This document shows, piece after piece, positions 17,389 through 35,345 of a stretch of 64,000 bases of DNA. Below the pieces are notes generated by a model. That model did not search any database. It was not told the origin of the DNA and was given only the letters and a program-made list of their open reading frames with translations. Within the stretch, counting starts at the first letter, position 1; each line of letters opens with the position of its first letter. Source of the stretch: Thiohalobacter thiocyanaticus (lineage in GTDB: Bacteria; Pseudomonadota; Gammaproteobacteria; Thiohalobacterales; Thiohalobacteraceae); assembly GCF_002356355.1 (NCBI RefSeq), contig NZ_AP018052.1:806001-870000 (forward strand). Direction: 5' to 3'. The position numbers were made by a program, and so were the translations under genes.

Positions 17389-18780
17389 CTACATCTTGAA
17401 GGCAAAACTGACTCCCAGGGAATTCTGATACATCGAGATGGCGGCGTTGTCCTCACCCGGTGCCCGGTTGGTGAAGGCGGTGGTGCCCTTGATGGTGTTC
17501 TCGAAGGCGTGCATATAGTTGAACGACCATTCGATGTTGGGGCTTGGGCGGTAGCTGGCGCCGAAGGTGAGATGCCATTCGACCGTTGCGGGTGCCAGCA
17601 TGTTGAACAGGACCTGATCCTCCTGGATGGGGGATTCACCGTAGTTCACGCCGGCGCGGAAGCTCCAGGTCTTGTTGTAGTCATAGTTGACGCCCAGCTT
17701 GTAGACGGTCTGGTCTTCCCAGCCGAACCCCATACCGTCATTCCCGCCGAGGTTGCAGCGCGACGGATCGAGGCTGTCGTCACCGGGGCACAGGGGATTG
17801 AGGTCCACCGGGTCGATGGGTCCGGGGTTGCTGACCGAGCGGATGCTGCTGTAATCGATGTACTGAACATCAGCGGCAATCGTCAGTTTCTTGGTGGGCT
17901 GGTAGGCAATCCCGACTGTGTAATGCGCAGGGATGTCGAAATCGCCCTGCTCGGCAAACAGGTTCTCGTATTTCTTGAATTCCGTCATGTAGACGCGCGA
18001 GGCATAGTTCCAGCCGAAGGTGAGCTTGTCATCGAAGAACTTGTGCAGGCCGCCCAGACGGAAGCCGGCGCCATAGGACCAGTCGTTGCCCTCGCCGCTG
18101 ACCCTGTCGGTGGCGGCGGCGAAGCCCAGATCCTCGAACGCGCCCAGGCCGTAGGCACGGAAGGTCTGGACGGCAAGCGCCACCGAGGCGCCAAGGGTAT
18201 GGTCCCGGTGCACGCGGTAGGCGACGCTGGGCAGCATCTGCATCTGCATCAGCATGACGCCCACGGTCGTGCTGTCGGCGTTGCAGTTGAAATTGAAGAA
18301 GTAGCTGTCGGTGCCGCCGCTGGTATCGCCGTTGACGCAGCTGGGGTTGCCCGGGACTTCCTGGTTGTACCGGGTGCCGAGACCTGCCCCGATGGCGGCC
18401 ATTCCGATCACCATGTCGCGGTTGAAGCGGAATGCGCCCCCCATGTTGGGAATGAGAAAGATGTTGCTGCCGCTCTTCTCGCTGGTAACGCCGTTGGTTG
18501 TTCCCAGGGTGTCGCTGCTGTGATAGATCGACCGGGGTGGGTTGAAGAACTCGCCGCCCACATCCACCCGCAGGGTGTTCATATCGATATCCATCATGGC
18601 GGCGGGGTTGGCGGCAGCAGCGAGGGCGTCCTGGGCATAGGCCACACCGACACCACCCATGGCGCGGGATTTTGCGCCGAAGCCGATCAGGAAATAACCA
18701 TTGGTGGCTACAGCCGCGCTGGGTATGACTGCACTGAGGGCAGCGCACAGCGGGAGCAAGCGTGTCATCCGCGCTCTCAT
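17389..18780 (-). CDS. FadL/OmpP1/TodX-family outer-membrane transporter
   Basis: 463 residues. The signal peptide ends at ...SAAVA, then TNGYFLIGFGAKSRAMGGVGVAYAQDALAAAANPA, the FadL N-terminal hatch with NPA motif, followed by a 14-strand-type barrel ending SLGVSFAFKM. The family takes up hydrophobic molecules such as long-chain fatty acids or aromatics. A GGAGGAG site precedes ATG 18780. The substrate cannot be inferred; association with the anchored protein downstream is notable. Confidence 0.88.
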   Translation of the reverse strand: MRARMTRLLPLCAALSAVIPSAAVATNGYFLIGFGAKSRAMGGVGVAYAQDALAAAANPAAMMDIDMNTLRVDVGGEFFNPPRSIYHSSDTLGTTNGVTSEKSGSNIFLIPNMGGAFRFNRDMVIGMAAIGAGLGTRYNQEVPGNPSCVNGDTSGGTDSYFFNFNCNADSTTVGVMLMQMQMLPSVAYRVHRDHTLGASVALAVQTFRAYGLGAFEDLGFAAATDRVSGEGNDWSYGAGFRLGGLHKFFDDKLTFGWNYASRVYMTEFKKYENLFAEQGDFDIPAHYTVGIAYQPTKKLTIAADVQYIDYSSIRSVSNPGPIDPVDLNPLCPGDDSLDPSRCNLGGNDGMGFGWEDQTVYKLGVNYDYNKTWSFRAGVNYGESPIQEDQVLFNMLAPATVEWHLTFGASYRPSPNIEWSFNYMHAFENTIKGTTAFTNRAPGEDNAAISMYQNSLGVSFAFKM

Positions 18781-19226: not shown

Positions 19227-19300
19227 AAGTGCCTGTTCTGAATGAGAGGGTACAGAGCAGGGTGTTTTCAATATTATGTTTTTATTACAAAAATAATAGT

Positions 19301-19316
19301 TGGCGTGGAGATTGCT
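19301..19316 (+). promoter_or_regulatory. Sigma-54 (-24/-12) promoter of the PEP-CTERM gene
   Basis: TGGCGTGGAGATTGCT matches the RpoN consensus TGGCACG-N4-TTGCW except at two positions; GG and GC have the obligatory 10-nt spacing. Transcription would begin near 19327, leaving a leader of about 70 nt. PEP-CTERM genes in other bacteria are known to be under sigma-54 and the PrsK/PrsR two-component system. Confidence 0.75.
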
Positions 19317-19396
19317 TTTTCACTGGCACCGAGCTTATGTCACAGCCGGTGTTTGAGAAGCAAAACTCAAATCCATGTTTGGAGGAGATCCACAAA

Positions 19397-20269
19397 ATGA
19401 CTATGAAAAAGAATTTGGTAGGCGCGGCGATTGCTGCTGCAGTGGGTGTCGCAGCCCCTCAGGCTGCCATGGCCGACATCATCACTGCCGATTGGGATGG
19501 CCTGTTCACCATGCTGGATTCCACTGGTGCTGCACTCGATAATGGTAGCCTGCCCAAGGGTACCAACCGATTCCAGACCCCGGTCAACGGTACCATCCAG
19601 TTCGACACCGATACCGGCACTGGCAGTGCGACGCTGGTGCCCTTCGATTTTTTCAACGGTTCCCTTCCGGCCGAAGCCGTGGGCATTGAGTTCCAGGCCA
19701 TCGGTGATGGCATGGGCGGTGAGGGCTCGCTGGTGCTGGGGAACATGCTGTTCAACTGGAACGGCAACACCGGTATCCCGGTTTCCATCGTACTGGACGC
19801 GGCTGGCTTCTTCGGCGGCATGCAGGCTGGTTTGATCGGAGACGGCGACCTGACCCAGGCTGAGGTCGCGGGCTTCGGTGCGACTCCGGCCTCCGACGGC
19901 ACGTACACTAATGGTACTTATGGTTATCTGGGTGTCGGCCCGGTACCGATCGCAACCACTGAGTGGAATACCAGCTTTGCCCCTGGCTGTAGTCTGGGCG
20001 ATTGCGAGGGAGTAAGTCCTTCCGGTGCCTTGCCGCTGGTTGAGGATACTGACGCTAACCTGAACGAGTTCGCCCAGGGCGACGGTGTTGGTATCGGCGG
20101 CAATCCGATGGCCGATGGCCCTTTCCAAGGCTTCAACGCCAACTTCGATATCACCGCTATGACCAACATCCAGGTGACGCCGTCGGCCATTCCGGTCCCG
20201 GCCGCAGTCTGGCTGTTCGGCTCCGGCCTGCTGGGCCTGGTCGGCGTAGCGCGCCGTCGTAAGGCCTGA
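19397..20269 (+). CDS. PEP-CTERM sorting-domain protein
   Basis: 290 residues. Signal peptide MTMKKN...AAMA, a beta-rich domain shared with the large protein at 14589, then the C-terminal sorting signal IPVPAAVWLFGSGLLGLVG plus ARRRKA, the VPAA variant of PEP-CTERM. Exosortase is expected to cut at the motif and release or transfer the protein at the cell surface. Start fixed by GGAGGAG nine bases before ATG 19397; in-frame codons back to 19229 lack a signal-peptide N-terminus. Sigma-54 promoter upstream, terminator downstream, so it is monocistronic. No exosortase gene is in the window. Confidence 0.9.
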   Translation: MTMKKNLVGAAIAAAVGVAAPQAAMADIITADWDGLFTMLDSTGAALDNGSLPKGTNRFQTPVNGTIQFDTDTGTGSATLVPFDFFNGSLPAEAVGIEFQAIGDGMGGEGSLVLGNMLFNWNGNTGIPVSIVLDAAGFFGGMQAGLIGDGDLTQAEVAGFGATPASDGTYTNGTYGYLGVGPVPIATTEWNTSFAPGCSLGDCEGVSPSGALPLVEDTDANLNEFAQGDGVGIGGNPMADGPFQGFNANFDITAMTNIQVTPSAIPVPAAVWLFGSGLLGLVGVARRRKA

Positions 20270-20698: not shown

Positions 20699-22666
20699 TC
20701 AGTCTTGGTTGTGAACCGTGCCCAATCCTTCATTCAGTGCCCCGATCCAGGGCTCGAATCGCCGCCAGCGCTGTACTGCGCTGGTGTAGACTGGCTGGCG
20801 CACTTGGGCGTGGCTGGGGGTGTTGACGGTGCGTTGCTGCTCATAGAAACGCAGGCAGGCGGAGGTCCAGTCCAGACCGCAGAACTCAACCAGTCGGCGG
20901 CTCTGGGCCTCGGTATCCTCGACCAGGGACTCATAGGTCAGCGTGAGTAGCGGCAAATCCAGTACCTGTTCCCAGTGTGCCATCAGGCGCTCATAAGCGC
21001 GATAATAGCGGCCCAGGCTATGCAGATTGCGGGCATACAGGTGCCCGGTGTTGAAGCGGTGGGAGTAGATCGACAGGCAGGTATCACGCGCATCCCGCAC
21101 ACAGTGGATGACCCTGGCCTGCGGGAGCAGCAGCCGGACCAGCCCCAGGTGCAGAAAGTTATGCGGCAGCTTGTCGGTAACACGCGCGGCTTCGGCTGAG
21201 AGTCGTTCCAGGCCATCCAGATAGCGCCGAGCCAGACCATGCAGGTCCTGCGCCGTAAGTTCTTCCAGGCAGGCGGGGTAGGGCTTGTTCCCGGTGTTGC
21301 CCGGGAGTTGCTGGACGATCTGCCACAGATCGGTCAGTTCTCCGCCGCCATGGACTCCGGGATGGGAGGCAAGTATCTGCTCCACCAGACTGGTGCCGGA
21401 GCGGGGCATGCCGACGATGAAGATCGGGCGCTGTGAGTCACAGCCGCTGTCGGGCAGTGCTGCCAGTCGCTCTGCGCTGAAAAAGGCGCGTATGGTATCC
21501 ATCTCCTGCAGATGCCGGTCGATGTCGTCGGGTAGGGACCTTAAGGTCTGGGCGCGCTGGTAATGATGGAACGCGGCCTCGTAGCGTCCCGCCCGCTCGT
21601 AGAGGCGACCAGCAGCGAAGAACAGGCCGTCGAGTCCGGGTGCAGTCTCCTCTGTCCGTTCCAGCCGCTGTTCCAGCAGTTCCAGTGCGGCTTCGGGCTG
21701 GCCGAGCCGGGGGCTGATCTCGGCATAAACCCGGGCGACGTCCACCGACGTGTCTCCGCCGCTCAACAACGGCTGCAGACGCTGCCCCGCTTCCGTGTAA
21801 TCGCCCTGCAGGGCCAGGATATTGGCTAATTCCGCCGTGGCGACTGGATGTGCCGGCTCGGCCTTGAGTGTGGTCTCCAGATGGGCGCGGGCGGAATCGA
21901 ATTCACCTTTGCCGCTCAGGACTACACCGAGGCGGACCCTCGCATGCAGGTTGCCGGGCTGCAATTTCAAGGCCTGCTGGTAGCTGTCTCGCGCGGCGTC
22001 CCGGCGGTTGAGCTCCTCCATCATCCTGCCCAGACTGCACCAGGTTTCCGCCAGGGGCTGTAGGCGAAGGGCTCCCTGGAAGGCCTCGAGCGCGCCCTGA
22101 AAATCAGCCTTGGCATGCAGCAATTCACCCTGCAGGTGCCAGGCAGGTGCCAGACCGGGGTTGCGTTTCAACGCAGCGCGGACCTCAGCCAGTGCTGCAT
22201 CGGCTTGGCCCTGCAGCCGCAGGGTGATGGCCAGTTCAAGCCGGACGGCGGCATTGCGCGGATCCAGCATCAGAGCCTCGCGCAAGGCGGCCTCGCTCGC
22301 GGTCATGGTTTGACGCGCGCGGTGCAGTTGGCCCAGGCTGAGGTGCGGGATGGGGTTGCTGGCATTGAGCCGGATTGAGGTGGCGAAACAGGTCTCAGCC
22401 TCATCAAGCCGGCCTTGCTGTAGCAGGCTGATGCCTAGGTTGTCCCACGCTCCGAACAGATCGGGCCGGATTTTGGTGCAGCGGCGGAAGGCATGTTCCG
22501 CTCCGGTGGGGTCGGCGGTCTGGCCACGCGCCAGTCCCAGCAGGAACCAGATGTCGCTATCGGTGCAGCCGGGTTCGGCGTGAGCTTCGAGCAACGACTT
22601 TGCCCGGTCCGGCTGCCCCATCTGAATAAGCTGTTGTGCCTTTTGCTTGATTTGGGGGAGCTTCAT
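20699..22666 (-). CDS. TPR-sulfotransferase (second copy in operon)
   Basis: 655 residues. About ten TPR units fill residues 1-380; residues 400-640 are a Sulfotransfer_3-type domain with the PAPS 5'-phosphosulfate loop IFIVGMPRSGTSLVEQIL and the 3'-phosphate segment HCVRDARDTCLSIY, plus DKLPHNF. The C-terminus (VNTPSHAQVRQPVYTSAV) closely follows the paralogue at 29453. The reaction would be sulfate transfer from PAPS to a hydroxyl; tyrosylprotein sulfotransferases share this fold, but the acceptor here is unknown. No signal peptide, so cytoplasmic. Last gene of the five-gene TPR operon. Confidence 0.85.
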   Translation of the reverse strand: MKLPQIKQKAQQLIQMGQPDRAKSLLEAHAEPGCTDSDIWFLLGLARGQTADPTGAEHAFRRCTKIRPDLFGAWDNLGISLLQQGRLDEAETCFATSIRLNASNPIPHLSLGQLHRARQTMTASEAALREALMLDPRNAAVRLELAITLRLQGQADAALAEVRAALKRNPGLAPAWHLQGELLHAKADFQGALEAFQGALRLQPLAETWCSLGRMMEELNRRDAARDSYQQALKLQPGNLHARVRLGVVLSGKGEFDSARAHLETTLKAEPAHPVATAELANILALQGDYTEAGQRLQPLLSGGDTSVDVARVYAEISPRLGQPEAALELLEQRLERTEETAPGLDGLFFAAGRLYERAGRYEAAFHHYQRAQTLRSLPDDIDRHLQEMDTIRAFFSAERLAALPDSGCDSQRPIFIVGMPRSGTSLVEQILASHPGVHGGGELTDLWQIVQQLPGNTGNKPYPACLEELTAQDLHGLARRYLDGLERLSAEAARVTDKLPHNFLHLGLVRLLLPQARVIHCVRDARDTCLSIYSHRFNTGHLYARNLHSLGRYYRAYERLMAHWEQVLDLPLLTLTYESLVEDTEAQSRRLVEFCGLDWTSACLRFYEQQRTVNTPSHAQVRQPVYTSAVQRWRRFEPWIGALNEGLGTVHNQD

Positions 22667-22717
22667 TGTGTGTGATGCAACTCATCTACAGGGCTGGTAT
22701 TTCAGGTTTGGTGTAAA

Positions 22718-24532
22718 TCAGATGATTTTTTTTAAAATGTAGACAGTCCCGGCGACCGGCTTACCATATTCCAGTCGCAGTTCTCGGTCGGTCATTTCTA
22801 GTAGCTCAAACCCAGTACTGGCGGCAAGATTTATGATGTAGTTCTTGCTGTGTGCATGCCGCCCACTGCCTTGGATGCGATAACCATCGCCAGGGCAGGT
22901 CTCGGTGGAGAAGGCGAAAATCCCCGTCTGCTGAAGCGCTTGTCTGGCTGCAACAAAAACCGGTTCCAGGTTGCCTAGGTAGACGAATACGTCGGCGGCG
23001 AGAATCAGATCGTAATGTTTGTCGCATTCCTCCAGGTATTGGAGAAGATCGGCGACGGCAAGTTCATCGTAAAGCCCGCGTTCACGGGCTTTATCGATCA
23101 TCTTGCTGGAGAGGTCCATGCCGACCAGTCGTTTGGCTGCCGGCTTGAACAGCGGCGCACACAGCCCGGTACCGCAACCGAGATCTAGGATGTTGAGCTT
23201 GGCAGGTGATTGTAGTAGTTGCTCCTGCAGAGCTTCATGCAGATATTCCGGTGTTTTGTATTGCAGCCGGTCGACCAGTTCCTGGTCGAATTTCTCGGCA
23301 TACTGATCAAACAGCCCGGCGACATAGTCGCAGTGATCGTCATCGGCTCCGATCCTGCCTTCCAGCGATGCTATATAATAAGTCGCTTCACTAAGGTCCG
23401 GCTTGCACTTCAAGGCGTCGCGGAAAGCTTGTATAGCAGCCTGGGGTTCGGCGAGTTCACACAGTGTCTGACCGAGGCCATAGTGGCCCTCATAGTATTC
23501 GGCGTCGTTTTCTATGGCCTGCTGATAGCTGCGGCGAGCCTCTGCCAAATCCTTCTTGGCAAGCAGAACCCGGCCCAGATTACAGTGGGCGGTGGCGAGC
23601 CGTGGTTGCAACTCCACGGCGCGACGAAAATGCTGTTCAGCGGGCTCGATCTGGCCGAGGCGCTCGTAAAGTCGCCCGAGATTGTTGTGGAGCAGGGGGT
23701 TGTCCGCATCCTGTTCAAGTAACTGCTCATATAGCTTGTGCGCAGGTCCGAAACGTTCTGCGGCATAAAGGCAATAGGCGAGATTGAAGCGCAGTTCGAA
23801 GTTCGGCTGCAGGCGGACAGCGCGTTCATAATATGTTGCGGCATCTGCGTAGTGCTCCGCCTGGCGCTCTATATGACCCAGTTCCGCCCAGCCCTGCGCA
23901 AAGCCGGGATGTGTGCGAGTGATTTCCTGCAATAATTCGCGTGCCTTGTCCGTATGGCCTAGGCCTTTGTGGCAGATTGCGATCTGGCAATTAATTTCGT
24001 GAGTGTTGCCGAATCGATCCTGCGCGGATTGTAGGCAGTCAATTGCCTGCTGGGGTGAGTCAGCCAGCAGATAAGCCCGGGCCAGCGCAAGGTGTGCGGC
24101 GGCCTGGTCCGGGGCAGCCTCAAGCGCGGCTTTGGCAGCCTCAAGGCCGGAATCGGGTTGTCCCAGTGAGCAGAAGACTGCGGCGAGATTGATTCTGGCG
24201 GCAGCATAGCCGGGGTCGACCTCCAGTGCCCGTTGATAGGCATCCCGGGCCGCTTCCAGGCGGCCAAGTGATTGAGAAGCCAGTCCCAGGTTGAAGGCCG
24301 CGACCGCATGGCGAGGTTTTAATTTGAGTACCCGCTGGCAGCAGTCGATGATATTCCCGTAGTCGAAGCGTTGTGCATGCACCGCAGCTTGGGTCAACCA
24401 GGCGTCGGGATCATTTGGATACTTGCGGCAGGCCTGTTGGGCGGCATTCAGAGCTTCCTGAAGCTGCCCCTGCTGCAATAGTAGCCGGGCCTTGTGCTGT
24501 TGCCTGGTTTTTTTATAAGTGCTCGATTTCAT
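22718..24532 (-). CDS. TPR-methyltransferase (class I SAM)
   Basis: 604 residues. TPR units span about 10-380; residues 400-600 are a class I SAM methyltransferase with motif I ILDLGCGTGLCAPLF, motif II acidic loop GMDLSSKMIDKAR and motif IV LILAADVFVYLG. It begins with the head LLLQQGQLQEALNAAQQAC, similar to its operon neighbours. Substrate unknown. The gaps to the neighbouring genes are 48 bp upstream and 51 bp downstream. The catalytic domain differs from that of the other methyltransferase in the operon. Confidence 0.84.
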   Translation of the reverse strand: MKSSTYKKTRQQHKARLLLQQGQLQEALNAAQQACRKYPNDPDAWLTQAAVHAQRFDYGNIIDCCQRVLKLKPRHAVAAFNLGLASQSLGRLEAARDAYQRALEVDPGYAAARINLAAVFCSLGQPDSGLEAAKAALEAAPDQAAAHLALARAYLLADSPQQAIDCLQSAQDRFGNTHEINCQIAICHKGLGHTDKARELLQEITRTHPGFAQGWAELGHIERQAEHYADAATYYERAVRLQPNFELRFNLAYCLYAAERFGPAHKLYEQLLEQDADNPLLHNNLGRLYERLGQIEPAEQHFRRAVELQPRLATAHCNLGRVLLAKKDLAEARRSYQQAIENDAEYYEGHYGLGQTLCELAEPQAAIQAFRDALKCKPDLSEATYYIASLEGRIGADDDHCDYVAGLFDQYAEKFDQELVDRLQYKTPEYLHEALQEQLLQSPAKLNILDLGCGTGLCAPLFKPAAKRLVGMDLSSKMIDKARERGLYDELAVADLLQYLEECDKHYDLILAADVFVYLGNLEPVFVAARQALQQTGIFAFSTETCPGDGYRIQGSGRHAHSKNYIINLAASTGFELLEMTDRELRLEYGKPVAGTVYILKKII

Positions 24533-24580
24533 ATATTTATTTCATTGCTTAAGGATGATGCGCTAGATCTATATTTTGCA

Positions 24581-27181
24581 TCAATCCCGCGCCTGACACC
24601 AGAAAGTATACATACCGATAAAGGTGTCGGGATGTCGCTGCTCGAACTGGTCCCAATGTGTCAGATTGGTCAGGTCCGGGTCGTCCGGGAAGGCCTGAAG
24701 ATAGCGGTGTTTAAGTTGCATATCCTGGATTTCGAAGCCGACGAAGTCGAGTTCGGCGCGGTCAAGCAGGGCTTGGATTTCCGGCAAGGTATAGACATGC
24801 TCCTGGGCATGGAAGATCAGATCACGGCATTCGCTCAGACTGTAGAAATCCTGCATTCGGGTGAGCGCCTGTAACTCGTCATCCGGGGGCAGGGTGCGGA
24901 TTTCCTGGCGGACGGCCCGGATCGCGTCGAGGTCGTCCAGGCGTTGTCCGGCCTCGAACCTCCTGCGGGCGGCCTGGACAGCTTGTCTGGCGGTGCGGCT
25001 GTAAAATCCCAGGTTCATTATTCCGTTTGGCTGCAGTAAACGGCGCAAGGAGAGTAGGCCGCGGGCCGGGTCAGCAAGATGGTGAAGAACGCCGACGGAT
25101 TCGATGATGTGGAAGCGTTGTTCAAGCTCGTCGAGTTCGAGGATGTCGCCTTGGAAAAATTTTATCTCATCGAAACCCAACTCATGCGCGCGGCGTTGGG
25201 CATAGGCCAGGCTGCTCCGGCTGAGGTCGATGGCGGTGATGCTGCCGTGCTTTAACCGGCTGGCTGAAAGCAGGGCATGCTTTCCGGTACCGCAGCCCGC
25301 GATCAGGATGTCTATTGATTCAGTGCCGAAATCAGGCGGAACGAAATGCGGGAGTTCTTCGCGCAATAAATCTTTATAGGAACGGGGGGAATACAGATCC
25401 AGGCTGAGCCACCGTGGATAGGGTGACTTCTCGTACTGGGCGCGGACGCTGTCTGAAGAGCTTTCCTGTATCTGTGTCAGCGCAGGGAGTGCATGTTTTA
25501 TATGTTCCTCAAGCTGTGGATGGTAAATATGTTTTTCCCAGAGTGATCGCAGTCGTTCCGCGATTGATGTTTCGATACGCATGGGTGTATTGGGTATGGG
25601 CCAGTCGAACGGAAGTTGGCCATAACAGGCAAGCAGTAGTGTTCCGGTGATGTAAGCCTGCGAGGATGGTAATAGTTTTCGGCAGCAAAACTCACGGAGC
25701 GTCTGTGTGCGATCGCGTTCGTCCGGGCTGCATGCGTAAACGAATTCATTGTTATGACATTGGTGGGCCAGCGCGGTCAGCCGGGCCAAGGTATCGATGT
25801 CTGGGAGACTCGCGGGGCAGCCGGTCGACTCTGTGAGTTGAAACAGTGCAGTACTGCGGTACTGCCGGAGACAGTCTTCGATTTCACTGTCGGGAATCAC
25901 GGTCTGGCACAGGATTGCTTCCAGCAATGGACGTTCAGGAGTGTGCCAGAGGCAGTCGAAGGCCTGCAGATCATCGGTCCAGTCACGGCGGGTCAGCCGT
26001 TTGGCTAACTCAGGATGCGAGCGAAGCAGAGACATAACAGGGCCAATGAGATACTGCTGATCGATCCCTTCATCCTGGAAACAAGCGGCCAGAGTTTTCC
26101 TGAACTCGGCGTTGTTGTGGAATTGCCCGGTGGAGCCGGCAATTCGAGCGAATTGCTGTCCATGAGTTCGGTTACCGGGGTCCAGTTGTAGGGCTCGCAG
26201 ACTGTGGATGAGAGCTTCCTGTTGGTTGCCGATTGCGGCATGTAGGAGCGAGAGGTTGGCCTGTATCGATGCGAGATCGGGGCGCTGTCTGGCCGCCTCT
26301 TTGAGGTGACGTAGTCCCTCCCGGGTTTGGCCATTGGTGTGCAGGAGGGTGCCCAGGTTGTTATGGCTACGATAGGCGGTAGGATTGATCTTTAGGGCAG
26401 CGCCATATTCCCGTATCGCTTCCTGTAGGTTGCCAGCTTGCTGATGCAATCCGGCGAGAGCATGGTGCAGTCTGTGGTCAGGGCGGCAGGTCCTGATTGC
26501 GGCCCGCAGACTGGCGACTGCTTCCTCCGGTTGGTCCGCATTGGCATGTATGCGCGCCAGTAGAAGATAGTTGTCGGCAAAGTCGGGTGCCGTCTCAACC
26601 AGTTTCTCCAGTATGTCCAAAGCTGACGCGGAGTCGCCCTGTAGCCAATAGCAGCGGGCGGCGTTCACACGTGCATGCTGCAGCCCTGAATCACACTGTG
26701 TGGCGTAGAGATAAGCTGCCAAAGCCGGCTCCAATTCGCCTCTGTCCTCATGGATCAGCCCCAGGGTGTTGTGAGCTGAGGCAAATTCTGGCTGGAGAGA
26801 GAGAGCCTTACGCGAACAGGCTTCCGCGGATTCGAGGTCGCCGACGTTACGATGAAGAAGTCCCAGGTTGGCCAGGGCCTGTGGGTGGTTCGGTGTGGTT
26901 TTGAGCAATACCTGATATTGTTCAATCGCCTCGGCCGTGCGTCCCAGGGCGTGTAGGGCGACAGCGAGATTATAGCGTGCTTGGGTATGCCCGGGTTGGA
27001 CTTTCAGTGCCTGAGAGCAAGCGGCTGCGACCTCTGCGATATTACCCGTGAAGGCTTGAATCGATGCTTTAAGCAGCCATGAATCTGCCTGATCGGGGTA
27101 GGTGTTGCAGTGCTGCTCTGCAAGTTGGAGTGCCTCATTGATACGGCCGGCCTGGAGGAAAGACTGTATCTGCTGTTGCAT
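24581..27181 (-). CDS. Large TPR-methyltransferase with unassigned middle domain
   Basis: 866 residues. TPR units about 1-360, a helical middle region (360-590) I do not recognise, then VRAQYEKSPYPRW, which precedes the methyltransferase in many TPR-methyltransferase fusions, and the SAM domain with motif I ILIAGCGTGKHALLSA, DLSRSSLAYAQRR and SVGVLHHLADP. The C-terminal 150 residues form an extra helical cap. The N-terminal head FLQAGRINEALQLAEQHC parallels that of the 22718 protein. It is the third gene of the operon, 6 bp after the OGT-like gene. Substrate unknown. Confidence 0.83.
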   Translation of the reverse strand: MQQQIQSFLQAGRINEALQLAEQHCNTYPDQADSWLLKASIQAFTGNIAEVAAACSQALKVQPGHTQARYNLAVALHALGRTAEAIEQYQVLLKTTPNHPQALANLGLLHRNVGDLESAEACSRKALSLQPEFASAHNTLGLIHEDRGELEPALAAYLYATQCDSGLQHARVNAARCYWLQGDSASALDILEKLVETAPDFADNYLLLARIHANADQPEEAVASLRAAIRTCRPDHRLHHALAGLHQQAGNLQEAIREYGAALKINPTAYRSHNNLGTLLHTNGQTREGLRHLKEAARQRPDLASIQANLSLLHAAIGNQQEALIHSLRALQLDPGNRTHGQQFARIAGSTGQFHNNAEFRKTLAACFQDEGIDQQYLIGPVMSLLRSHPELAKRLTRRDWTDDLQAFDCLWHTPERPLLEAILCQTVIPDSEIEDCLRQYRSTALFQLTESTGCPASLPDIDTLARLTALAHQCHNNEFVYACSPDERDRTQTLREFCCRKLLPSSQAYITGTLLLACYGQLPFDWPIPNTPMRIETSIAERLRSLWEKHIYHPQLEEHIKHALPALTQIQESSSDSVRAQYEKSPYPRWLSLDLYSPRSYKDLLREELPHFVPPDFGTESIDILIAGCGTGKHALLSASRLKHGSITAIDLSRSSLAYAQRRAHELGFDEIKFFQGDILELDELEQRFHIIESVGVLHHLADPARGLLSLRRLLQPNGIMNLGFYSRTARQAVQAARRRFEAGQRLDDLDAIRAVRQEIRTLPPDDELQALTRMQDFYSLSECRDLIFHAQEHVYTLPEIQALLDRAELDFVGFEIQDMQLKHRYLQAFPDDPDLTNLTHWDQFEQRHPDTFIGMYTFWCQARD

Positions 27182-27187
27182 TCCGGG

Positions 27188-29434
27188 TTACCCTGTGGAG
27201 ACGCTGACTATGCAGTTGGTTATTTGATCAAGAAAGGCTTGCTGAAAATCCGATTGATCGCAAAGGGGTGAGGTGGCCATCCGCTGGCGGATATTTCTAT
27301 AGGGGTGCTCGCCGCTCTGCAATTTATGAGCAAGGCCGATGGCGATGTTCAGGTATTGCTGGTCGTCTCCTGCGACGAATTCCCCCATATCCATGGCATG
27401 CAGCAGTGAGGCGCCGACACGAGAGGCGTGTCGTGTGCCCGTGCGAGTGATAACGGGTCGGCCCATCCATAGCGCCTCGCAGGTTGTTGTTGTGCCATGG
27501 TAAGGGAAAGTATCCAGGGCGATGTCGATAGTGTTGTAGGCGGCATAGTGGTCATTTGTGGGCACCCAACCCAGAAGTTCCAGCCGTTCTGCTGCAATCC
27601 CCTGTTCCATGAAAAGCCGCCTGAAATATCCGGCAACATTGGGATCGCCAAGTGGCCTGGCTTTGAGGACGATGCGGGATTCGGGTACTGCCTGAAGAAT
27701 GCGGCTCCATAGAACGATCATCCGGGGCGTGATCTTGGCCAGGTTGTTGAAGCAGCCAAACGTGATTGTATCGTTGCAACTGCCCGGCAATGTGGGTTCC
27801 GGCGCATCTTCGGGTGGCGTAAAGCAGAGGAAGCAACGGGGCATACGTAGTAATTTTTCTGTATATAACTCCTGCTGGCCGTTTGGGTCTGCGATACTGT
27901 CTGTGAGTCGGTAGTCCATCTCTGCTAAGCCGCTGGTGTTGGGATAGCCGAGATATGTGATCTGAACCGGACAGGGTCGCAAGGTGAACAGCCCCAGCCT
28001 GTTGCCGCTGGTATGGCCGGCCAGGTCGATCAGCACGTCAGGGCGGTCTTGGTATATACGATCCGCGGTAGCCTGATCGCTGAGTTTTGTGATATCGCGC
28101 CAAAGATTCGCTTGTGAACGTATCCTTTGGGTCATGCGATCTGGATTTTTTGTATTTGAATAGCAGATGATTTCCACGTCGGGGCGCCTGGCCAGCCCGG
28201 TCAAGCTCAGGAAGAAATACGCAACGGAATGTTCGCGGAAATCGGGTGAGACAAATCCGATGCGGATTTTTGATGGTGGTCGTTCTGCAGGGATTGGTGT
28301 TGCTGCGAGATGCAGGTTTTCCTTCCGGGCGCCCCATTCGAAATGCTGGCGTGCAATATGTGTATCGTCGAACTCCGGGCAATAATTCATTGCCATGAGG
28401 CGGTTGCTGGCAGCTTCGGCGTAGTCGGGGGCCAGCCGTAGGGCCATATCAAAACAGTCGATTGCTTCCTGCGGCTTTCCTGACAGCATATGCAATGTGC
28501 CCAGATTGGTCCAGGCCTGGTGCAGGTTCTTGTCCAGCTCGATCGCGTTCATGTAGCTGTGAATGGCGTCGGACAGGCGGTTTATGCGGCTGTAGGCAAG
28601 CCCCAGGTTGTAATGCAGTTCCGCCACCTGTGGGTCTTGCCTGATGGCATCATTCAGGCGTTCGATTGCTTCATCATGGTTTCCAGTCTCGATCAATGTA
28701 AGCGCGAAGTTGGAAACCAATCTTGAATTCTCTGGGGCTAGCGACAAGGCGCGTCGATAATAGGCCTCGGACTGTTCGAGGTTACCTGTGTCCCTGTGCA
28801 GGAGAGCGATAGAGCTTAGATATTCCTGGTTGTCGGGTTGAAGCGAAACAGCGGATTCCGCCTGCGTTAGCGCGGCATCTAGGTTGCCCTGTTCAACAAA
28901 CAACAGGCTGAGCTGATGTCTGGACGCGGCAAGTCCTGGCTGATGCCTGATGGCTGATTCGAGGCTCTGTTGCGCCTGTTCTTTTTCTCCTACGGCTAGT
29001 TGTGCCAGTGCGAGGTTGTGATGTGCCTGGGAAAAATCGGGCTTAAGTTTCAGTGCTTGCATGTATCTTCTGATCGCTGCCTCATTATCACCCTGTTGCT
29101 GCAATACGTTGCCAAGTTCGCACAGAGCTTCTGCGAATTCAGGCTGCAGGCTGATCGCCTTTTTCAGGCTTGTCTGTGCCTGGCTGTATTTGTTCTGCCT
29201 CAGTTGCGCAACGCCGAGGTTGTACCAGGCGGGTGCTGTCCGCGGATGCAATTTTATAACGCGCTGGCAATAGGACTCGCTGCCGGCAAAATCGCCCAGC
29301 TGACCACAAATCGCACTCATGAGGAACAATAGTCGCGCATTGCTGGGTTGAGTCTGGCATAGCTGCTCGCACACCTTGTGCGCTTCGGTAATCCGGTTTT
29401 GTTGTAAGAGCAGCATCAGTTGTTGCTGATTCAT
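27188..29434 (-). CDS. TPR-O-GlcNAc-transferase-like glycosyltransferase
   Basis: 748 residues. TPR units cover about 1-370; residues 385-745 are a GT41 (SPINDLY/OGT) domain with IGFVSPDFREHSVAYFF, DLAGHTSGNRL, ITYLGYPNTSGLAEMDYR, FGCFNNLAKITP and the UDP-sugar segment DTFPYHGTTTTCEALWMG. GT41 enzymes transfer GlcNAc or related sugars to Ser/Thr of cytoplasmic proteins. Both the His of the catalytic AGHT segment and the nucleotide-binding motif are present, so it should be active. It lies between a sulfotransferase and a methyltransferase gene, with gaps of 18 and 6 bp. Confidence 0.9.
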   Translation of the reverse strand: MNQQQLMLLLQQNRITEAHKVCEQLCQTQPSNARLLFLMSAICGQLGDFAGSESYCQRVIKLHPRTAPAWYNLGVAQLRQNKYSQAQTSLKKAISLQPEFAEALCELGNVLQQQGDNEAAIRRYMQALKLKPDFSQAHHNLALAQLAVGEKEQAQQSLESAIRHQPGLAASRHQLSLLFVEQGNLDAALTQAESAVSLQPDNQEYLSSIALLHRDTGNLEQSEAYYRRALSLAPENSRLVSNFALTLIETGNHDEAIERLNDAIRQDPQVAELHYNLGLAYSRINRLSDAIHSYMNAIELDKNLHQAWTNLGTLHMLSGKPQEAIDCFDMALRLAPDYAEAASNRLMAMNYCPEFDDTHIARQHFEWGARKENLHLAATPIPAERPPSKIRIGFVSPDFREHSVAYFFLSLTGLARRPDVEIICYSNTKNPDRMTQRIRSQANLWRDITKLSDQATADRIYQDRPDVLIDLAGHTSGNRLGLFTLRPCPVQITYLGYPNTSGLAEMDYRLTDSIADPNGQQELYTEKLLRMPRCFLCFTPPEDAPEPTLPGSCNDTITFGCFNNLAKITPRMIVLWSRILQAVPESRIVLKARPLGDPNVAGYFRRLFMEQGIAAERLELLGWVPTNDHYAAYNTIDIALDTFPYHGTTTTCEALWMGRPVITRTGTRHASRVGASLLHAMDMGEFVAGDDQQYLNIAIGLAHKLQSGEHPYRNIRQRMATSPLCDQSDFQQAFLDQITNCIVSVSTG

Positions 29435-29452
29435 GACTTAGGTAACTCCGCC

Positions 29453-31249
29453 CTATTGCACGATTCCCAGGCCCGCTTTTAATGGCGCCAGGTGTTTGTC
29501 ATAGTTTTTCCAGCGATCGAGGGAGGACTTGTACACAGGCTGACGTACCTGATCGTAACTTGGTGTGTTGACGATGCGTCGACTGGTGTGAAATTCAAGG
29601 CAATTCTCGTTCCATCGCAGACCGCAGTAATCGAGCAGGCGGCGGCTGACTGTTTCCTGATCAGTGATCAGGTTCTCGTACTGGATTTCGTGCAGGTTTT
29701 CACCATAAAGCTTACGCCAGTGCTGCATCAGTTGCTCGTATTGGCGGTAATACTGGCCCAGGCTGAAAAGATCGGTGGAATATGGGTGGTTGGTGTTGAA
29801 GTTGTGGAAATAAATCGACAGACACACATCCAGTGGATTACGCATGACGTGTACGATTCTGGCAGCCGGAATGGCTGCGCGTATCAGCCCGACGAAAAGG
29901 AAATTATGAGGCATTTTGTCACAGATGAATGCCGCTGAAGGTTCTAGTTGTTTGAGCTTGCGGTGGTATTTCTGGCCGAACTCATGGAGTTTTTGTTGGC
30001 TTATCTGGGCCATGAGATATGGGTACTTGTGACCCGTTGTTGATTCCAGGTCTCGGGTCAGATCTCCGATCCAGGATAACTCGCCTGCGCCATACACATC
30101 GGGATGGCTGGCGAGAATCTGTTCTATCAGGGTTGTGCCCGAACGCGGCATGCCGACAATGAAAATGGGTGTGGGTTTGCCAGCCTCTATGGCTGGTTCG
30201 CTGAAAGGTCGGTCGAAATATTCGACAATTGCATCGATATAGCGCTGGTTCGCTGTTGAATCGAACTGTTGTGGTCGGGTTTTGTTGCCGGAGTGGTAAT
30301 GTTGAAATGCGGTATCATATTCTTCTTGATCGTTATAAAGGTCGCCCAGCAGAAACTCTATCTCCTGTCGTTGAAGCGGAGGGATGGCGTGCGTGGCAAG
30401 CAGTTGCTCGAGCAACCGGATCCCGTCGGACTGCATGTTAGTGCGTCGCGACAGGATTCCGAAGGCAATGGCAATGGCAGGGGTTACCCTGCCCGCTTCG
30501 ATATAGGGTTTGAGTTGCTTCACAGCCTCGTCGTAGTGGCCTTCCTTTTCGCGAAGTTGGGCGATCGCAGCCACTGCTTCCAGCATTCCCGGGGCAATTT
30601 GCAGTGCTTTCTGGTAGTGATAGAACGCCTGTTCGTGCGCGCCATCGCTTTGCAATGAAACGCCGAGGTTGAAGTGTGCCTGGGCATAGCGTGGTTCGTG
30701 CTTGAGTGCCTTGCGGAAACTACTGATCGCCTCTTCGGTTCTGCACTGTTCATGCAGCAGGGTGCCCAGATTGTTGTGGGCCTGAGCAAAGCGGGGGTTC
30801 AGTCTTATAGCGGACTGGAATGAAGTTTTGGCCTCGCTGATTTTACCCTGCTCGCGAAGTACGGTTCCCAGATTGCTATGCGCGTTAAAATCCTTGGGGT
30901 CGACAGTGATTGCCTTACGGAAGCACTCTTCCGCTTCATCCAGTTTCCCCATTTGTGAAAGCAGCAGCCCCAGGTTCCCCCTCGCAGGCCCGAACTTCGG
31001 AAACTGTGCGATGGTCCGACGCAGATATTGTTCAGCTTTTGCCGTATCTCCCATGCGTCCATATATAACACCCAGCATGTTCCAGATGTCCGGATCACCA
31101 GGAGTCTGACGTAAAAGCGTCTCGAAGGCGGCCTTCGCTTGCGTGAGCTGGCCCCTGTTGTAAGCCGTAACAGCATGATTTTTCAGATTTATGATTTCCT
31201 GCTGCATAATCTGGTCTGGTTTATAGTGGGCGCTGGTCGGTAATTGCAT
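29453..31249 (-). CDS. TPR-sulfotransferase (first gene of TPR operon)
   Basis: 598 residues. About eight TPR units, then a Sulfotransfer_3 domain with IFIVGMPRSGTTLIEQILA, HVMRNPLDVCLSIY and DKMPHNFLFVGLI. The C-terminal RIVNTPSYDQVRQPVYKSSL is shared with the paralogue at 20699. ATG 31249 has an AAGGCGGA stretch just upstream; an in-frame ATG at 31207 is an alternative. First gene of the minus-strand operon; its promoter should lie in 31250-31625. PAPS use is inferred from the motifs. Confidence 0.86.
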   Translation of the reverse strand: MQLPTSAHYKPDQIMQQEIINLKNHAVTAYNRGQLTQAKAAFETLLRQTPGDPDIWNMLGVIYGRMGDTAKAEQYLRRTIAQFPKFGPARGNLGLLLSQMGKLDEAEECFRKAITVDPKDFNAHSNLGTVLREQGKISEAKTSFQSAIRLNPRFAQAHNNLGTLLHEQCRTEEAISSFRKALKHEPRYAQAHFNLGVSLQSDGAHEQAFYHYQKALQIAPGMLEAVAAIAQLREKEGHYDEAVKQLKPYIEAGRVTPAIAIAFGILSRRTNMQSDGIRLLEQLLATHAIPPLQRQEIEFLLGDLYNDQEEYDTAFQHYHSGNKTRPQQFDSTANQRYIDAIVEYFDRPFSEPAIEAGKPTPIFIVGMPRSGTTLIEQILASHPDVYGAGELSWIGDLTRDLESTTGHKYPYLMAQISQQKLHEFGQKYHRKLKQLEPSAAFICDKMPHNFLFVGLIRAAIPAARIVHVMRNPLDVCLSIYFHNFNTNHPYSTDLFSLGQYYRQYEQLMQHWRKLYGENLHEIQYENLITDQETVSRRLLDYCGLRWNENCLEFHTSRRIVNTPSYDQVRQPVYKSSLDRWKNYDKHLAPLKAGLGIVQ

Positions 31250-31625
31250 TCCGCCTTATGCAGGCAGCGGCTGAGGACCGGGATGGCCCCATTATTTTAT
31301 CTTCTGGCGGCCCTTCCCGGGCGCATGTAGTTATGGAGGAATTATGTCATGGCTACCCGGAATTATCATGGCTCAATCTGTCCGGAATCTTAACCCGCAT
31401 GAATAATAATGTCGGAAAAATATACAATACCGGCGCGATAGTCGATAAAAATATTAACAATAAATCAGTAAGATATCAGTCTGCCCCCTCGATTGTTGTC
31501 GAAAAAATTGGCATTTAAATGCATCAGTCTACTAGGCATGAGAACAAAACCTTTAATGAACAATATGTTGCAGCTGAGGCCTGAAACTTGCTTATCGGGT
31601 TTCCTGGGTCTTGCGGGAGATAACG
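31250..31625. other. Divergent intergenic region, AT-rich
   Basis: 376 bp between the TPR operon and the cyclophilin-fusion gene. AT-rich from about 31390 to 31520. It holds a TGTCGG-N8-ACA motif at 31410, weaker relatives near 31440 and 31497, and the GGGAGA ribosome site before 31626. A TGGCATTTAAATGCA stretch near 31508 resembles sigma-54 but has the wrong spacing. Confidence 0.55.
31410..31426 (+). promoter_or_regulatory. Candidate enhancer motif, copy 3
   Basis: TGTCGGAAAAATATACA, about 200 bp before the start of the cyclophilin-fusion gene. It matches the motifs upstream of the PEP-CTERM gene. Confidence 0.4.
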
Positions 31626-33779
31626 ATGAAACTCATAACCGGATTATCAAAATGTTCAGCGGTGTTGGCAGTATGGGGTCTGCTGGGACCTGTTTCTGCC
31701 ACCACGATGGTGCGCATGGAAACGGTTATGGGGAACATCGATATTGAACTGTACGATGATGTGGCACCGAATACGGTGGCCAACTTCATTGATTATTCCA
31801 CTGGGGGTTTATACGACAACAGTATCATTCATCGCAGCGAGCCTGGCTTTGTCATCCAGGGCGGTGGTTATATGCTCAACAGCGGGCAGGTGGAGCATAT
31901 TCCCGAGAATGATCCTGTGGTGAACGAATTTTCCTTGTCCAATCTGCGTGGCACCATCGCCATGGCAAAGCTTCCCGGCGATCCAGACAGTGCGACAAGC
32001 GAATGGTTTTTCAATCTGGGGGATAATTCGGGGAACCTTGATACCCAGAACGGCGGGTTCACCGTTTTCGGTCGCGTGCTTGGGGATGGCATGCAGGTAG
32101 TCGACTCTATTGCCGCCTTGCCTCGAGTCAATGCGGGCGGTGTTTTCAGTGCTCTGCCGGTGCGCGATTATGCTGACGGACCGCTTGCCGACGAGAGTTA
32201 CGTTTTCGTGAACCGGGTCGTTCTTCCACGTGTGGCCGTCTTGTCGTCGCTGATGGATTTTGGCGTTGTCGGTGTGGGGCAGACCGCGGAAGTTGAGGTG
32301 CGGATTCTGAATCAGGGTGGGTCTCCACTGTCTCTTGGCAATCTTGCGGGCACGGATCCGTTGGGGTCGCCTTTTGAAATCGTTTCCGGCGCTGACAACT
32401 GCTCAAACCAGGTTCTGGCTGCAGGTGAAGTTTGCGTGGTATTGGTGAGGTTTTCGCCGACGTCTCTGGGAGAATTCGGCGACAGCTTTGATGTTCCATC
32501 CGATGATAGTGAGACACCATATGTGCAGGTGCGTGGCGCAGGATCTCATCCGGCCAGCCTTTCGCCGTCTGACCAATTGCAGATGGGGTCTGTTGGAACG
32601 GGCGCTTCAGTAACGAAATCGGTCATTATAGAAAATGTCGGTGGCCAGTCCCTGACCCTGTATTCCATCCAGCTTACAGGCGCTGACCAGCAGGATTTCA
32701 TGCTTGATTACGGGGCGGACTGTAATGTGCTTGCGTCCGGGGCCACCTGTGAGGTGGATGTTATATTTATGCCTCAATCCGACGGCAGCAAGACCGTTCA
32801 ACTCGAAATAGAGACTGATTTTTCCGAGCAGTCCGGGGTAAGTCTGCAGATTACCGGTAGTGGCTCCGGGCCGAATCTCGGAGTTTCGAGTCGCAACCTG
32901 GATTTTGGTGACGTCCTGCTTACCTCTGTCGGTAGCCGGTCTTTGACCCTGATCAATGGCGGTGGGGCTGACCTGGTAATAAACAGTGTCACGATCGGCG
33001 GGGAGGATTCCCCCGCATTTCGCACGGTGTCAAATAACTGCTCGATTCTCGTCTCGCAGCAGCAGTGCAGTATTGGTATTGAATTTGATCCCCAGGAAGA
33101 GGGTATTCGTAATGCGCTTTTGGTCATCAACTCCAATGATCCTGATACGCCGGATGCCGAAGTTGCTCTGGTCGGAGTGGGGCGTGAGAGTTGGAATGAA
33201 GTAACGCTTGCGTCTGGTTCCGGTAATGTTGTGCTGCGTTCTCCGGAAGGCACGTCCCTTACAGGGGTGTCCATAATCGATGTGCCTTCGCCTGAGGAGG
33301 CGCCCGCTGATCTCTCTTTCGATTATGGGGTATATGAATTCAATCTGCAGTTGCCCTTGCCGGGAGGAGCTACGGCAGTGTCGCTGACCCTGCCCGAAGG
33401 AGTGGAGCCCAGCACCTATTATATGTATGGCGCCACGCCTGATAATGCTGTTCCGCATTGGTATGAATTTCTCTGGGATGGGCAAACCGGAACCGGCGCG
33501 GTTATCGAGGGGAATCTTGTTATGCTGTACTTGCGAGATGGCAAAAGAGGCGACTCGGACCTGCAGGCGAACGGGGTCATTGTCGATCCCGGCGCGCCGG
33601 GTTTTTCCCCGGCAGCTACCGGCTCCGAAGGCTCCGGCTCCGCTGCAGGTGGTGGCGGTGGCTGTGTTCTTGGCTCAAGCAGCCGTGGACCGGGAGACGC
33701 AGGGGGCTGGTTCCTTCTGATGGGGTTTGTGACCCTGCTGGGTGCATACCGACGGCTATCCAGATTGATCCAGGCCTGA
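31626..33779 (+). CDS. Secreted cyclophilin fused to choice-of-anchor domains with Gly-Cys tail
   Basis: 717 residues. Signal peptide MKLITGLSK...GPVSA. Residues 27-200 form a cyclophilin-type peptidyl-prolyl isomerase (NIDIELYDDVAPNTVANF, FVIQGGG, SEWFFNLGDN, GFTVFGRVLGDGMQVVD). Three ASPM/SPD-2/Hydin-like (choice-of-anchor D) domains follow (each with a DFG start and a conserved Cys pair), then a choice-of-anchor U-like domain ending RDGKRGDSDLQANGVIVDPG. The tail GGGGGCVLG, a hydrophobic helix and basic residues form the same kind of anchor as the 14589 protein. It probably folds or remodels surface proteins outside the cell. Start by GGGAGA before ATG 31626. Confidence 0.85.
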   Translation: MKLITGLSKCSAVLAVWGLLGPVSATTMVRMETVMGNIDIELYDDVAPNTVANFIDYSTGGLYDNSIIHRSEPGFVIQGGGYMLNSGQVEHIPENDPVVNEFSLSNLRGTIAMAKLPGDPDSATSEWFFNLGDNSGNLDTQNGGFTVFGRVLGDGMQVVDSIAALPRVNAGGVFSALPVRDYADGPLADESYVFVNRVVLPRVAVLSSLMDFGVVGVGQTAEVEVRILNQGGSPLSLGNLAGTDPLGSPFEIVSGADNCSNQVLAAGEVCVVLVRFSPTSLGEFGDSFDVPSDDSETPYVQVRGAGSHPASLSPSDQLQMGSVGTGASVTKSVIIENVGGQSLTLYSIQLTGADQQDFMLDYGADCNVLASGATCEVDVIFMPQSDGSKTVQLEIETDFSEQSGVSLQITGSGSGPNLGVSSRNLDFGDVLLTSVGSRSLTLINGGGADLVINSVTIGGEDSPAFRTVSNNCSILVSQQQCSIGIEFDPQEEGIRNALLVINSNDPDTPDAEVALVGVGRESWNEVTLASGSGNVVLRSPEGTSLTGVSIIDVPSPEEAPADLSFDYGVYEFNLQLPLPGGATAVSLTLPEGVEPSTYYMYGATPDNAVPHWYEFLWDGQTGTGAVIEGNLVMLYLRDGKRGDSDLQANGVIVDPGAPGFSPAATGSEGSGSAAGGGGGCVLGSSSRGPGDAGGWFLLMGFVTLLGAYRRLSRLIQA

Positions 33780-33901: not shown

Positions 33902-34354
33902 ATGGGCGCAAAATTGCCGCAAGTTCTCGTCATAAATGGTCCCAACCTCAACCTGCTGGGCAGCCGCGAACCTGGCCACTACGGGGTTCGCAGCCTGGAT
34001 GATATTTCGGCGGGGATAACGGCCCTGGCCGGCGAGTTGGGCACCGATGTCGACATTTTCCAGAGCAATGCCGAGCACGAGCTGGTCGGGCGGGTGCAGG
34101 CCGCGCGGGGGCAGGCCGATTTCATCATCATCAATCCCGCCGCCTTCACTCACACCAGCGTGGCGCTGCGCGACGCCCTGCTGGCGGTGAATATACCTTT
34201 TATAGAACTGCATCTCTCCAATGTGCATGCCCGGGAGGAATTCCGGGCGCATTCCTATTTCTCCGACATCGCGGTCGGGGTGATCAGCGGCCTGGGGCCG
34301 ATCGGCTACGAACTGGCGCTGCGCGCCGCGCATGACTATTTGTCACGTAACTAA
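33902..34354 (+). CDS. aroQ: Type II 3-dehydroquinate dehydratase
   Basis: 150 residues. Class II dehydroquinase signature [17 protein letters not shown](GHYG) with catalytic Tyr, active-site [17 protein letters not shown] and [18 protein letters not shown]. It converts 3-dehydroquinate to 3-dehydroshikimate in the shikimate pathway. It sits directly upstream of accB, as in many gammaproteobacteria; an 18-bp gap suggests co-transcription. Confidence 0.95.
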
Positions 34355-34372
34355 CTGATTACGGTAAAGAAT

Positions 34373-34840
34373 ATGGATATCCGCAAGGTTAAGAAACTGA
34401 TCGAGCTGCTGGAGGAGTCCGGCATCGCGGAGATCGAGATCCACGAGGGCGAGGAGTCGGTGCGCATCAGCCGCAACAGTTCCAGCGTCCAGACTGTGGT
34501 GCAGGCTGCCGCGCCCATGCCGGCCGCAGCCCCGGCCGCGCCGATGCCTGCTGCGGGCGCGCCGGCGGCTGAGCCGGCCGCGGAGGCCGCGCCGGCCATC
34601 CCGGCCGGGCACCAGGTCACCTCGCCCATGGTGGGCACCTTCTACCGCGCGCCCTCGCCGGGCGCCACGCCCTTCGTCGAGGTCGGTCAGCGGGTCAATG
34701 CCGGTGATACCCTGTGCATCATCGAGGCGATGAAGATGCTCAATCAGATCGAGGCCGACAAGGCCGGCACCGTGGTGGCCATCCTGGTCGAGAACGGCCA
34801 GCCGGTGGAGTTCGGCGAGCCGTTGTTCGTGATTGAGTGA
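34373..34840 (+). CDS. accB: Biotin carboxyl carrier protein of acetyl-CoA carboxylase
   Basis: 155 residues. N-terminal [23 protein letters not shown], an Ala/Pro-rich linker (about 45-80), and the biotinyl domain with the EAMKM motif, whose Lys is biotinylated, plus the PMVGTFY thumb region. It carries CO2 between AccC and the AccAD carboxyltransferase. In most gammaproteobacteria accC follows within tens of bases; here a 472-bp element is inserted between them. Confidence 0.95.
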
Positions 34841-34850
34841 ATTCAGGATC

Positions 34851-35322: not shown

Positions 35323-35345
35323 AATTTTTATGAAATCGATAAACC

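Follow-up and report, generated by a model that had tools for sequence, protein, structure and literature searches.

A tetratricopeptide-repeat enzyme operon, putatively protein-modifying, beside genes for exosortase-sorted surface proteins in Thiohalobacter thiocyanaticus

Layout of the operon

Here, we describe a five-gene operon of Thiohalobacter thiocyanaticus (NCBI RefSeq assembly GCF_002356355.1, contig NZ_AP018052.1) whose products combine arrays of tetratricopeptide repeats (TPRs) with sulfotransferase, methyltransferase, and glycosyltransferase domains, and which lies close to genes for surface proteins of the exosortase-sorted kind. It was analysed within a stretch of 64,000 nucleotides (positions 806,001 to 870,000 of the forward strand), which is called the window throughout and to which the coordinates below refer; G and L numbers are our handles for genomes and loci. 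A preliminary description of this DNA had placed five minus-strand genes here, each coding for a TPR array with a catalytic domain of its own and none for a signal peptide. The open reading frames lie exactly where described, all on the minus strand and with intergenic spacings of 51, 48, 6, and 18 bp in the order p1 to p5, and both Pfam and a Kyte-Doolittle scan agree with the rest of that account.

20699-22666, minus strand: p1, TPR array and TPST-like sulfotransferase domain (20699-21469; Pfam Sulfotransfer_3)
22718-24532, minus strand: p2, TPR array and class I methyltransferase (Pfam Methyltransf_12/11/25)
24581-27181, minus strand: p3, TPR array and class I methyltransferase of the protein-lysine-methyltransferase type (C-terminal domain 24581-26119)
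27188-29434, minus strand: p4, TPR array and GT41 domain (27188-28282; Pfam Glyco_transf_41), SPINDLY (protein O-fucosyltransferase) type
29453-31249, minus strand: p5, TPR array and TPST-like sulfotransferase domain (29453-30217; Pfam Sulfotransfer_3)

Pfam finds many TPRs in all five products, with E-values far past chance, and the likeness among these arrays, considered with regard to a possible docking of the enzymes on each other, is that of an ordinary TPR background; the methyltransferase domains of p2 and p3 are unlike each other. No N-terminal hydrophobic stretch is found in residues 1-60 of p1 to p5 (best 19-residue Kyte-Doolittle means of -0.23 to 1.14), and all five proteins are presumably cytoplasmic. 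The GC content is 51-58% across most of the island to which the operon belongs, as against about 65% in the flanks. A promoter scan gave eight matches versus 6.1 expected from shuffled sequence, which is no better than the shuffles.

Catalytic domains of the five products

The sulfotransferase domains of p1 and p5 match Pfam Sulfotransfer_3 with E-values of 2.9e-43 and 1.3e-47, and the best PDB matches are tyrosylprotein sulfotransferases, namely TPST for p1 (5.5e-11) and human TPST1, over the whole domain, for p5 (3.6e-7). A profile of 30 TPR sulfotransferases likewise matches TPST at 6.5e-23, with the CurM sulfotransferase as the next class at 9.5e-11. Moreover, the predicted model of the p5 domain (mean predicted local distance difference test score, pLDDT, of 86.8) compares with TPST1 at a Z-score of 23.6 and a root-mean-square deviation of 2.8 for 236 of 254 residues, while the best non-TPST structure reaches 18.7 and the heparan-sulfate sulfotransferases about 14; these Z-scores, and those for p3 below, come from a second comparison of Foldseek matches, and the rankings hold among the matches listed. 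The catalytic residues of TPST1 are R79, E100, K159, and S286 (PMC5562738), and their equivalents are kept in 30, 29, 29, and 30 of the 30 TPR sulfotransferases, respectively, with p1 and p5 having all four. By way of the TPST mechanism, the predicted acceptor of p1 and p5 would be tyrosine. Since the type II membrane, lumenal topology of the eukaryotic enzymes is absent, there being no hydrophobic N-terminal segment and a TPR array in its place, we class p1 and p5 as having a TPST-like catalytic domain and not as TPSTs proper.

Two further observations concern this sulfotransferase family. A paralogue at L166:7274-8029 has the E100 and K159 equivalents replaced by Q and T, and is probably inactive to judge from these substitutions. 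Relatives of the TPST-like domain, 31-46% identical and mostly near full length, are also present on 25 viral contigs (IMG/VR; L268-L292).

The p4 product, previously taken to be OGT-like, does belong to GT41 (Pfam Glyco_transf_41, 1.7e-57), though not to its OGT type. Its best PDB match is SPINDLY at 4.5e-90 versus 2e-49 for OGT, and of the residues that tell the two apart (K689/A731/Y744 in SPINDLY versus L866/R904/C917 in OGT; PMC10027727), it reads K, A, and Y at the SPINDLY positions, the equivalents of H495, S496, K665, and E752 being matched as well. Based on these signature residues, the predicted donor is GDP-fucose, and p4 is predicted to be a SPINDLY-type O-fucosyltransferase.

For p3, the predicted model (mean pLDDT 89.7) has protein lysine methyltransferases as its top five fold matches, comprising Rv2067c (Z-score of 24.2) and Rickettsia PKMT1/2 (17.6-20.1), with UbiG as the first match of another kind (16.9). 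The Rickettsia enzymes PKMT1 and PKMT2 methylate the outer-membrane protein OmpB. A profile search also returns Rv2067c as the best PDB match (1.1e-33), and this protein methylates histone H3K79 (PMC10739865). Among solved methyltransferases, p3 is hence closest to those acting on protein lysines, and lysine methylation would be its predicted activity. The best PDB match of p2 is METTL27 (8e-10), and p2 has no clear functional neighbour. We considered the p3 family as a marker for islands of this kind and rejected it, as it is widespread in Proteobacteria (584 loci) and mostly found without the other enzymes nearby; among the named p3 loci, only L205 has p3, a p2-type methyltransferase, GT41, and a possible PEP protein together.

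Candidate acceptors and their shared ectodomain

The operon lies, as had been described, between a PEP-CTERM/exopolysaccharide locus and an anchored cyclophilin, which the flanking annotations bear out. One flank holds XrtA/PEP-CTERM exopolysaccharide genes (chain length, tyrosine kinase, export) and, on the same side, genes for a FadL-family protein and for two surface proteins that we regard as candidate acceptors.

19229-20269, plus strand: candidate acceptor 1, secreted VPLPA-CTERM (exosortase) protein (TIGR03370, 27.6 bits against a cut-off of 25.35; ectodomain 19472-20161)
14589-17306, minus strand: candidate acceptor 2, 905-residue JDVT-CTERM-like protein (type A ectodomain 16458-17213; type B about 15297-15779)

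The listed GTG start of the VPLPA-CTERM protein is probably too early, with the signal peptide beginning near residue 57. The JDVT-CTERM model gives 21 bits in the second protein, just below its cut-off of 27, and choice_anch_U is over its cut-off. In residues 1-250, the mature JDVT protein shares 54% identity with the ectodomain of the VPLPA protein (E-value of 2.4e-75), and because of this common ectodomain, a single domain family would here be displayed on two different anchors. Its type B ectodomain (about residues 510-670) matches island VPLPA proteins of G010, G005, G092, and G093. Neither type A nor type B has a Pfam entry.

Closest to the VPLPA protein of the window are relatives from genomes of two other families, G319 (1.7e-46) and G146 (5.8e-31), where the nearest TPR sulfotransferase genes are at distances of 599 bp and 132 bp, respectively. 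More generally, when island VPLPA proteins of different genomes are paired, 55 of 641 pairs are homologous, versus 4 of 773 island-elsewhere pairs, the proteins from elsewhere having been taken from three genomes only. In our survey of 369 gammaproteobacterial genomes, the ectodomain is found in 10, eight of which have a TPR sulfotransferase as compared with 74 of the 359 others (Fisher P of 1.4e-4). With a search model built partly from island proteins, the ectodomain lies within 10 kb of a TPR sulfotransferase in six of the eight genomes with both (0.21 expected); for genomes outside the model building (G093, G090, and G007), this adjacency is seen in two of three (0.10 expected, P of 0.002). 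By acidic-Tyr counts, the VPLPA proteins of islands are not set apart from the others.

Recurrence in other genomes

The preliminary description had proposed co-occurrence of the five domain architectures as a check, and a fixed set is not what we find. The exact set is in no other genome examined, and within the same order the p3 catalytic domain is in none of 10 other genomes, GT41 in 6 of 11, and the sulfotransferase in 8 of 11; the enzymes instead come from a variable pool. What does recur are islands of a TPR sulfotransferase with GT41 and/or a p2-type methyltransferase, both in the same family and in other families (G092, G319, G165, G146, and G214), and their recurrent neighbours are VPLPA cargo, a FadL-family protein, JDVT-type proteins, and exopolysaccharide export genes. 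In G092 and G319, the sulfotransferase, GT41, and p2-type methyltransferase are found together beside VPLPA cargo.

Across the survey sample, TPR sulfotransferases are present in 82 of the 369 genomes and the VPLPA DNA motif in 37, a reversed control pattern occurring in none. A TPR sulfotransferase lies within 5 kb of a VPLPA motif in at least 7 of the 16 genomes with both (0.80 expected, P of 5e-7), a count that becomes at least 8 of 16 once one unlisted gene is placed, and with one genome per family in at least 5 of 12 (0.52 expected, P of 1e-5); all are lower bounds, because not every motif position is listed for some of the genomes.

Relatives of these enzymes are also found next to flagellin genes, as at L091, L099, and L165. 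At L165:9682-11703, a TPR sulfotransferase sits between fliC and flagellar hook-associated genes, an arrangement that suggests flagellin sulfation, while at L091 p3 and GT41 adjoin fliC-flaG-fliD, and p3 relatives stand beside flagellin genes in at least 9 of 80 named loci. Such placements favour a protein target in general. Near the operon itself, over about 7.5-37.5 kb of the window, none of the genes is labelled as flagellin.

Several other neighbours were seen in the compared loci. The G007 island, which has TPR sulfotransferase/GT41 genes, includes a tryptophan-halogenase-family gene (L108:3702-5282; PF04820, 5.8e-121), and its product may likewise modify surface proteins. Two proteins recur beside VPLPA clusters, one of the subtilase-TSP3-dockerin type and the other unnamed and about 310 residues long (L148:9120-11312 and 8164-9108, with relatives in L110 and L153). 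Beside TPR sulfotransferases, a family of about 370 residues with no Pfam or NCBIfam match is recurrent (L107:7014-8129 and L113:11449-12579), and a neighbour of like size at L161:4961-6112 is also without a match.

Exosortases and donor-synthesis genes

The exosortase link proposed earlier for the operon is supported as regards its cargo and probably needs correction as regards XrtA. In the genome of the window, XrtA lies 1.6 Mb from the island and XrtD about 0.2 Mb from it, the latter being the VPLPA-CTERM-specific exosortase type (TIGR04152, 580 bits against a cut-off of 400). The relevant exosortase for the adjacent VPLPA cargo is therefore probably XrtD rather than XrtA. About 2-3 kb downstream of XrtD are gmd and fcl (XrtD, gmd, and fcl together at L305:8548-14341, equivalent to G000 612.5-618.3 kb), of which fcl encodes GDP-L-fucose synthase (NF047922, 521 bits against a cut-off of 500), and 18 kb upstream is an APS (adenosine 5'-phosphosulfate) kinase gene; the remaining genes of this region resemble an exopolysaccharide locus. 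In G001, G006, G007, and G010 as well, a stretch of about 25 kb holds APS kinase, an XrtD-type exosortase, and gmd, with stops in the gmd reading frame of G010. Such a grouping is consistent with donors, enzymes, and sorting all serving a single class of cargo. Taken on their own, the GDP-fucose genes were rejected as a predictor of GT41, since gmd tracks XrtD and not GT41.

Flanking genes

Three further features of the window bear on the surroundings of the operon.

31611-33779, plus strand: divergent, anchored cyclophilin with choice-of-anchor D/U domains (NCBIfam)
17389-18780, minus strand: FadL/Toluene_X-family outer-membrane protein (PF03349, 4.3e-29)
6523-7344, plus strand: cysQ, phosphatase of 3'-phosphoadenosine 5'-phosphate (PAP) (TIGR01331, 324 bits against a cut-off of 229)

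The anchored cyclophilin is a possible foldase for surface proteins, and none is labelled in any other island compared. Relatives of the FadL-family protein recur in loci of G010, G009, G007, G005, G092, G319, G165, G146, and G214. A PAP-recycling cysQ at 6.5 kb had been pointed out before and is confirmed by the TIGR01331 score; it is a gene of general sulfur metabolism that would also serve sulfotransfer. Separately, aroQ-accB-accC (33902-36686) flank the island, and as aroQ and accC also flank sulfotransferase loci in G001, G004, and G093, this is a recurrent insertion site.

Proposed function and alternatives

Our preferred reading, to which we give a probability of roughly 60%, is that the operon represents one case of a variable protein-modification island whose enzymes modify the adjacent exosortase-sorted surface proteins prior to their export. 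An unfolded surface preprotein would lie with its chain in the groove of the TPR superhelix, much as the substrates of SPINDLY and OGT do, for which TPR binding has been described (PMC10027727), and such a grip on an extended chain would suit modification ahead of Sec export. Acting together, p1 and p5 would transfer sulfate from 3'-phosphoadenosine 5'-phosphosulfate (PAPS) onto tyrosine, p4 would add O-fucose from GDP-fucose to serine or threonine, p3 would methylate lysine, and p2 would methylate another group. The likeliest acceptors would be the VPLPA-CTERM protein encoded next to the operon and the JDVT-CTERM-like protein with which it shares its ectodomain, and the modified cargo would then be exported by Sec and anchored by XrtD and the JDVT system. 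That the acceptor is a protein, as the preliminary description had favoured, is supported by four of the five catalytic domains, whose nearest solved relatives modify proteins, and its suggestion that surface proteins are targeted before export gains support from the linkage to VPLPA-CTERM genes; a cytoplasmic location of the enzymes is supported as well. On the whole, the earlier account is partly upheld, in that its main idea appears largely right with corrections as to GT41 type, gene set, and exosortase. As a tentative extension, we suggest that bacteria may have a dedicated system for the combinatorial decoration, before export, of one exosortase-sorted protein family, its enzymes being tyrosine sulfotransferases, O-fucosyltransferases, and lysine methyltransferases fused to TPRs. 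By analogy with what glycosylation islands do for flagellin, the enzyme set of such a system might, somewhat speculatively, be reshuffled between species and so diversify the chemistry of the coat.

A number of observations weigh against modification of the adjacent surface proteins. No Tyr or Lys is invariant in the ectodomain alignment, on which ground a chemically defined acceptor site was rejected, and the two ectodomains of the window have one Lys each. The ectodomain is far from sulfotransferases in G001 and G007, is present without a TPR sulfotransferase in G098 and G317, and is not matched in the G165 and G214 islands, which do have VPLPA cargo; moreover, the search model derived partly from island proteins brings a degree of circularity to the ectodomain counts. 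G006 has XrtD, gmd, APS kinase, and 12 VPLPA motifs with neither TPR sulfotransferase nor GT41, from which it follows that the donor genes have other uses too, an additional one probably being exopolysaccharide. Lastly, an exopolysaccharide locus lies next to the island, a placement seen in several genomes, which leads to the main rival, namely that the polymer (or a glycolipid) made by the adjacent XrtA locus is what the enzymes act on, giving a sulfated, methylated, and fucose-bearing exopolysaccharide. The place of gmd, fcl, and APS kinase in an XrtD region whose other genes are exopolysaccharide-like agrees with this, as does the only open-access paper found with a detailed treatment of sulfotransferases and a mention of exosortases, which concerns a sulfated exopolysaccharide in a cyanobacterium (PMC8205485). 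We nonetheless consider this rival unlikely, because protein-acting enzymes are the nearest relatives of the sulfotransferase, GT41, and p3 domains (with heparan-sulfate sulfotransferases well behind TPST in the fold comparison, at 14 versus 23.6), related enzymes adjoin flagellin genes, and in G093 and G004 the sulfotransferases are found with VPLPA cargo beside aroQ-accC and no exopolysaccharide genes in the stretch examined.

More doubtful still is the reading that, in place of one pathway, these are loosely clustered paralogues whose TPR-bearing products modify targets of various kinds, in the cytoplasm or at the surface (flagellin, porins, and regulators). Composition does vary by genome, the p3 family is widespread and mostly without its partners, and TPR sulfotransferases also occur in 66 of the 332 genomes lacking the VPLPA motif and are found near porin-like genes; yet the tight, co-oriented spacing of 6-51 bp speaks against it, and so does the fact that VPLPA cargo in both G092 and G319 has a sulfotransferase, GT41, and a p2-type methyltransferase together at its side. 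Modification of a small peptide or secondary metabolite in the manner of natural-product clusters seems very improbable. While the mix of sulfotransferase, methyltransferase, and glycosyltransferase is typical of tailoring enzymes and a halogenase-family gene is found in the G007 island, we recognised neither a precursor peptide nor a synthase that would form a scaffold among the loci compared, and domains like those of SPINDLY, TPST, and PKMT, fused to TPRs, suggest that proteins are acted on.

Comparison with known systems

Most PEP-CTERM/VPLPA-CTERM proteins have no known function, and bacterial tyrosine sulfation is documented in very few systems. The present locus links these two puzzles through a concrete pairing of a candidate acceptor domain with enzymes whose catalytic residues are intact. 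If our preferred reading holds, the islands would supply protein modifiers of the TPST-like and SPINDLY-like kinds from bacteria, and the clustering of TPR sulfotransferases (82 of 369 gammaproteobacterial genomes) with surface proteins would be explained.

In fold, PAPS-binding motifs, and the catalytic residues R79/E100/K159/S286, p1 and p5 are like TPST1 and TPST2 (PF13469), though they differ in being bacterial, TPR-fused, without a membrane anchor, and presumably cytoplasmic, their acceptor being a predicted one. The Arabidopsis SPINDLY protein shares with p4 a TPR array joined to GT41 and the residues K689/A731/Y744, and GDP-fucose genes are present in the genome; in contrast, p4, whose activity is predicted, comes from a bacterial operon that also encodes sulfotransferases and methyltransferases and has surface-protein genes as neighbours. 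Rickettsia PKMT1/PKMT2 and Mycobacterium tuberculosis Rv2067c resemble p3 in methyltransferase fold and sequence, from which p3 stands apart by its N-terminal TPR array. The Xanthomonas sulfotransferase RaxST is not known to have a TPR array. This bacterial enzyme forms sulfotyrosine on the exported peptide RaxX (PMC6637879). Unlike what we propose for p1 and p5, its substrate is a small peptide and its activity is coupled to type I export. Flagellin glycosylation and modification islands offer the closest parallel in arrangement, with variable sets of cytoplasmic modifiers beside a surface-protein gene and related TPR enzymes among them, whereas the neighbouring cargo here is exosortase-sorted (VPLPA-CTERM). 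In the open-access literature searched, a TPR island of TPST-, SPINDLY-, and PKMT-like enzymes linked to exosortase cargo is not described. Each part is of a known kind, and what appears new is their combination as a variable island with exosortase cargo of a shared ectodomain.

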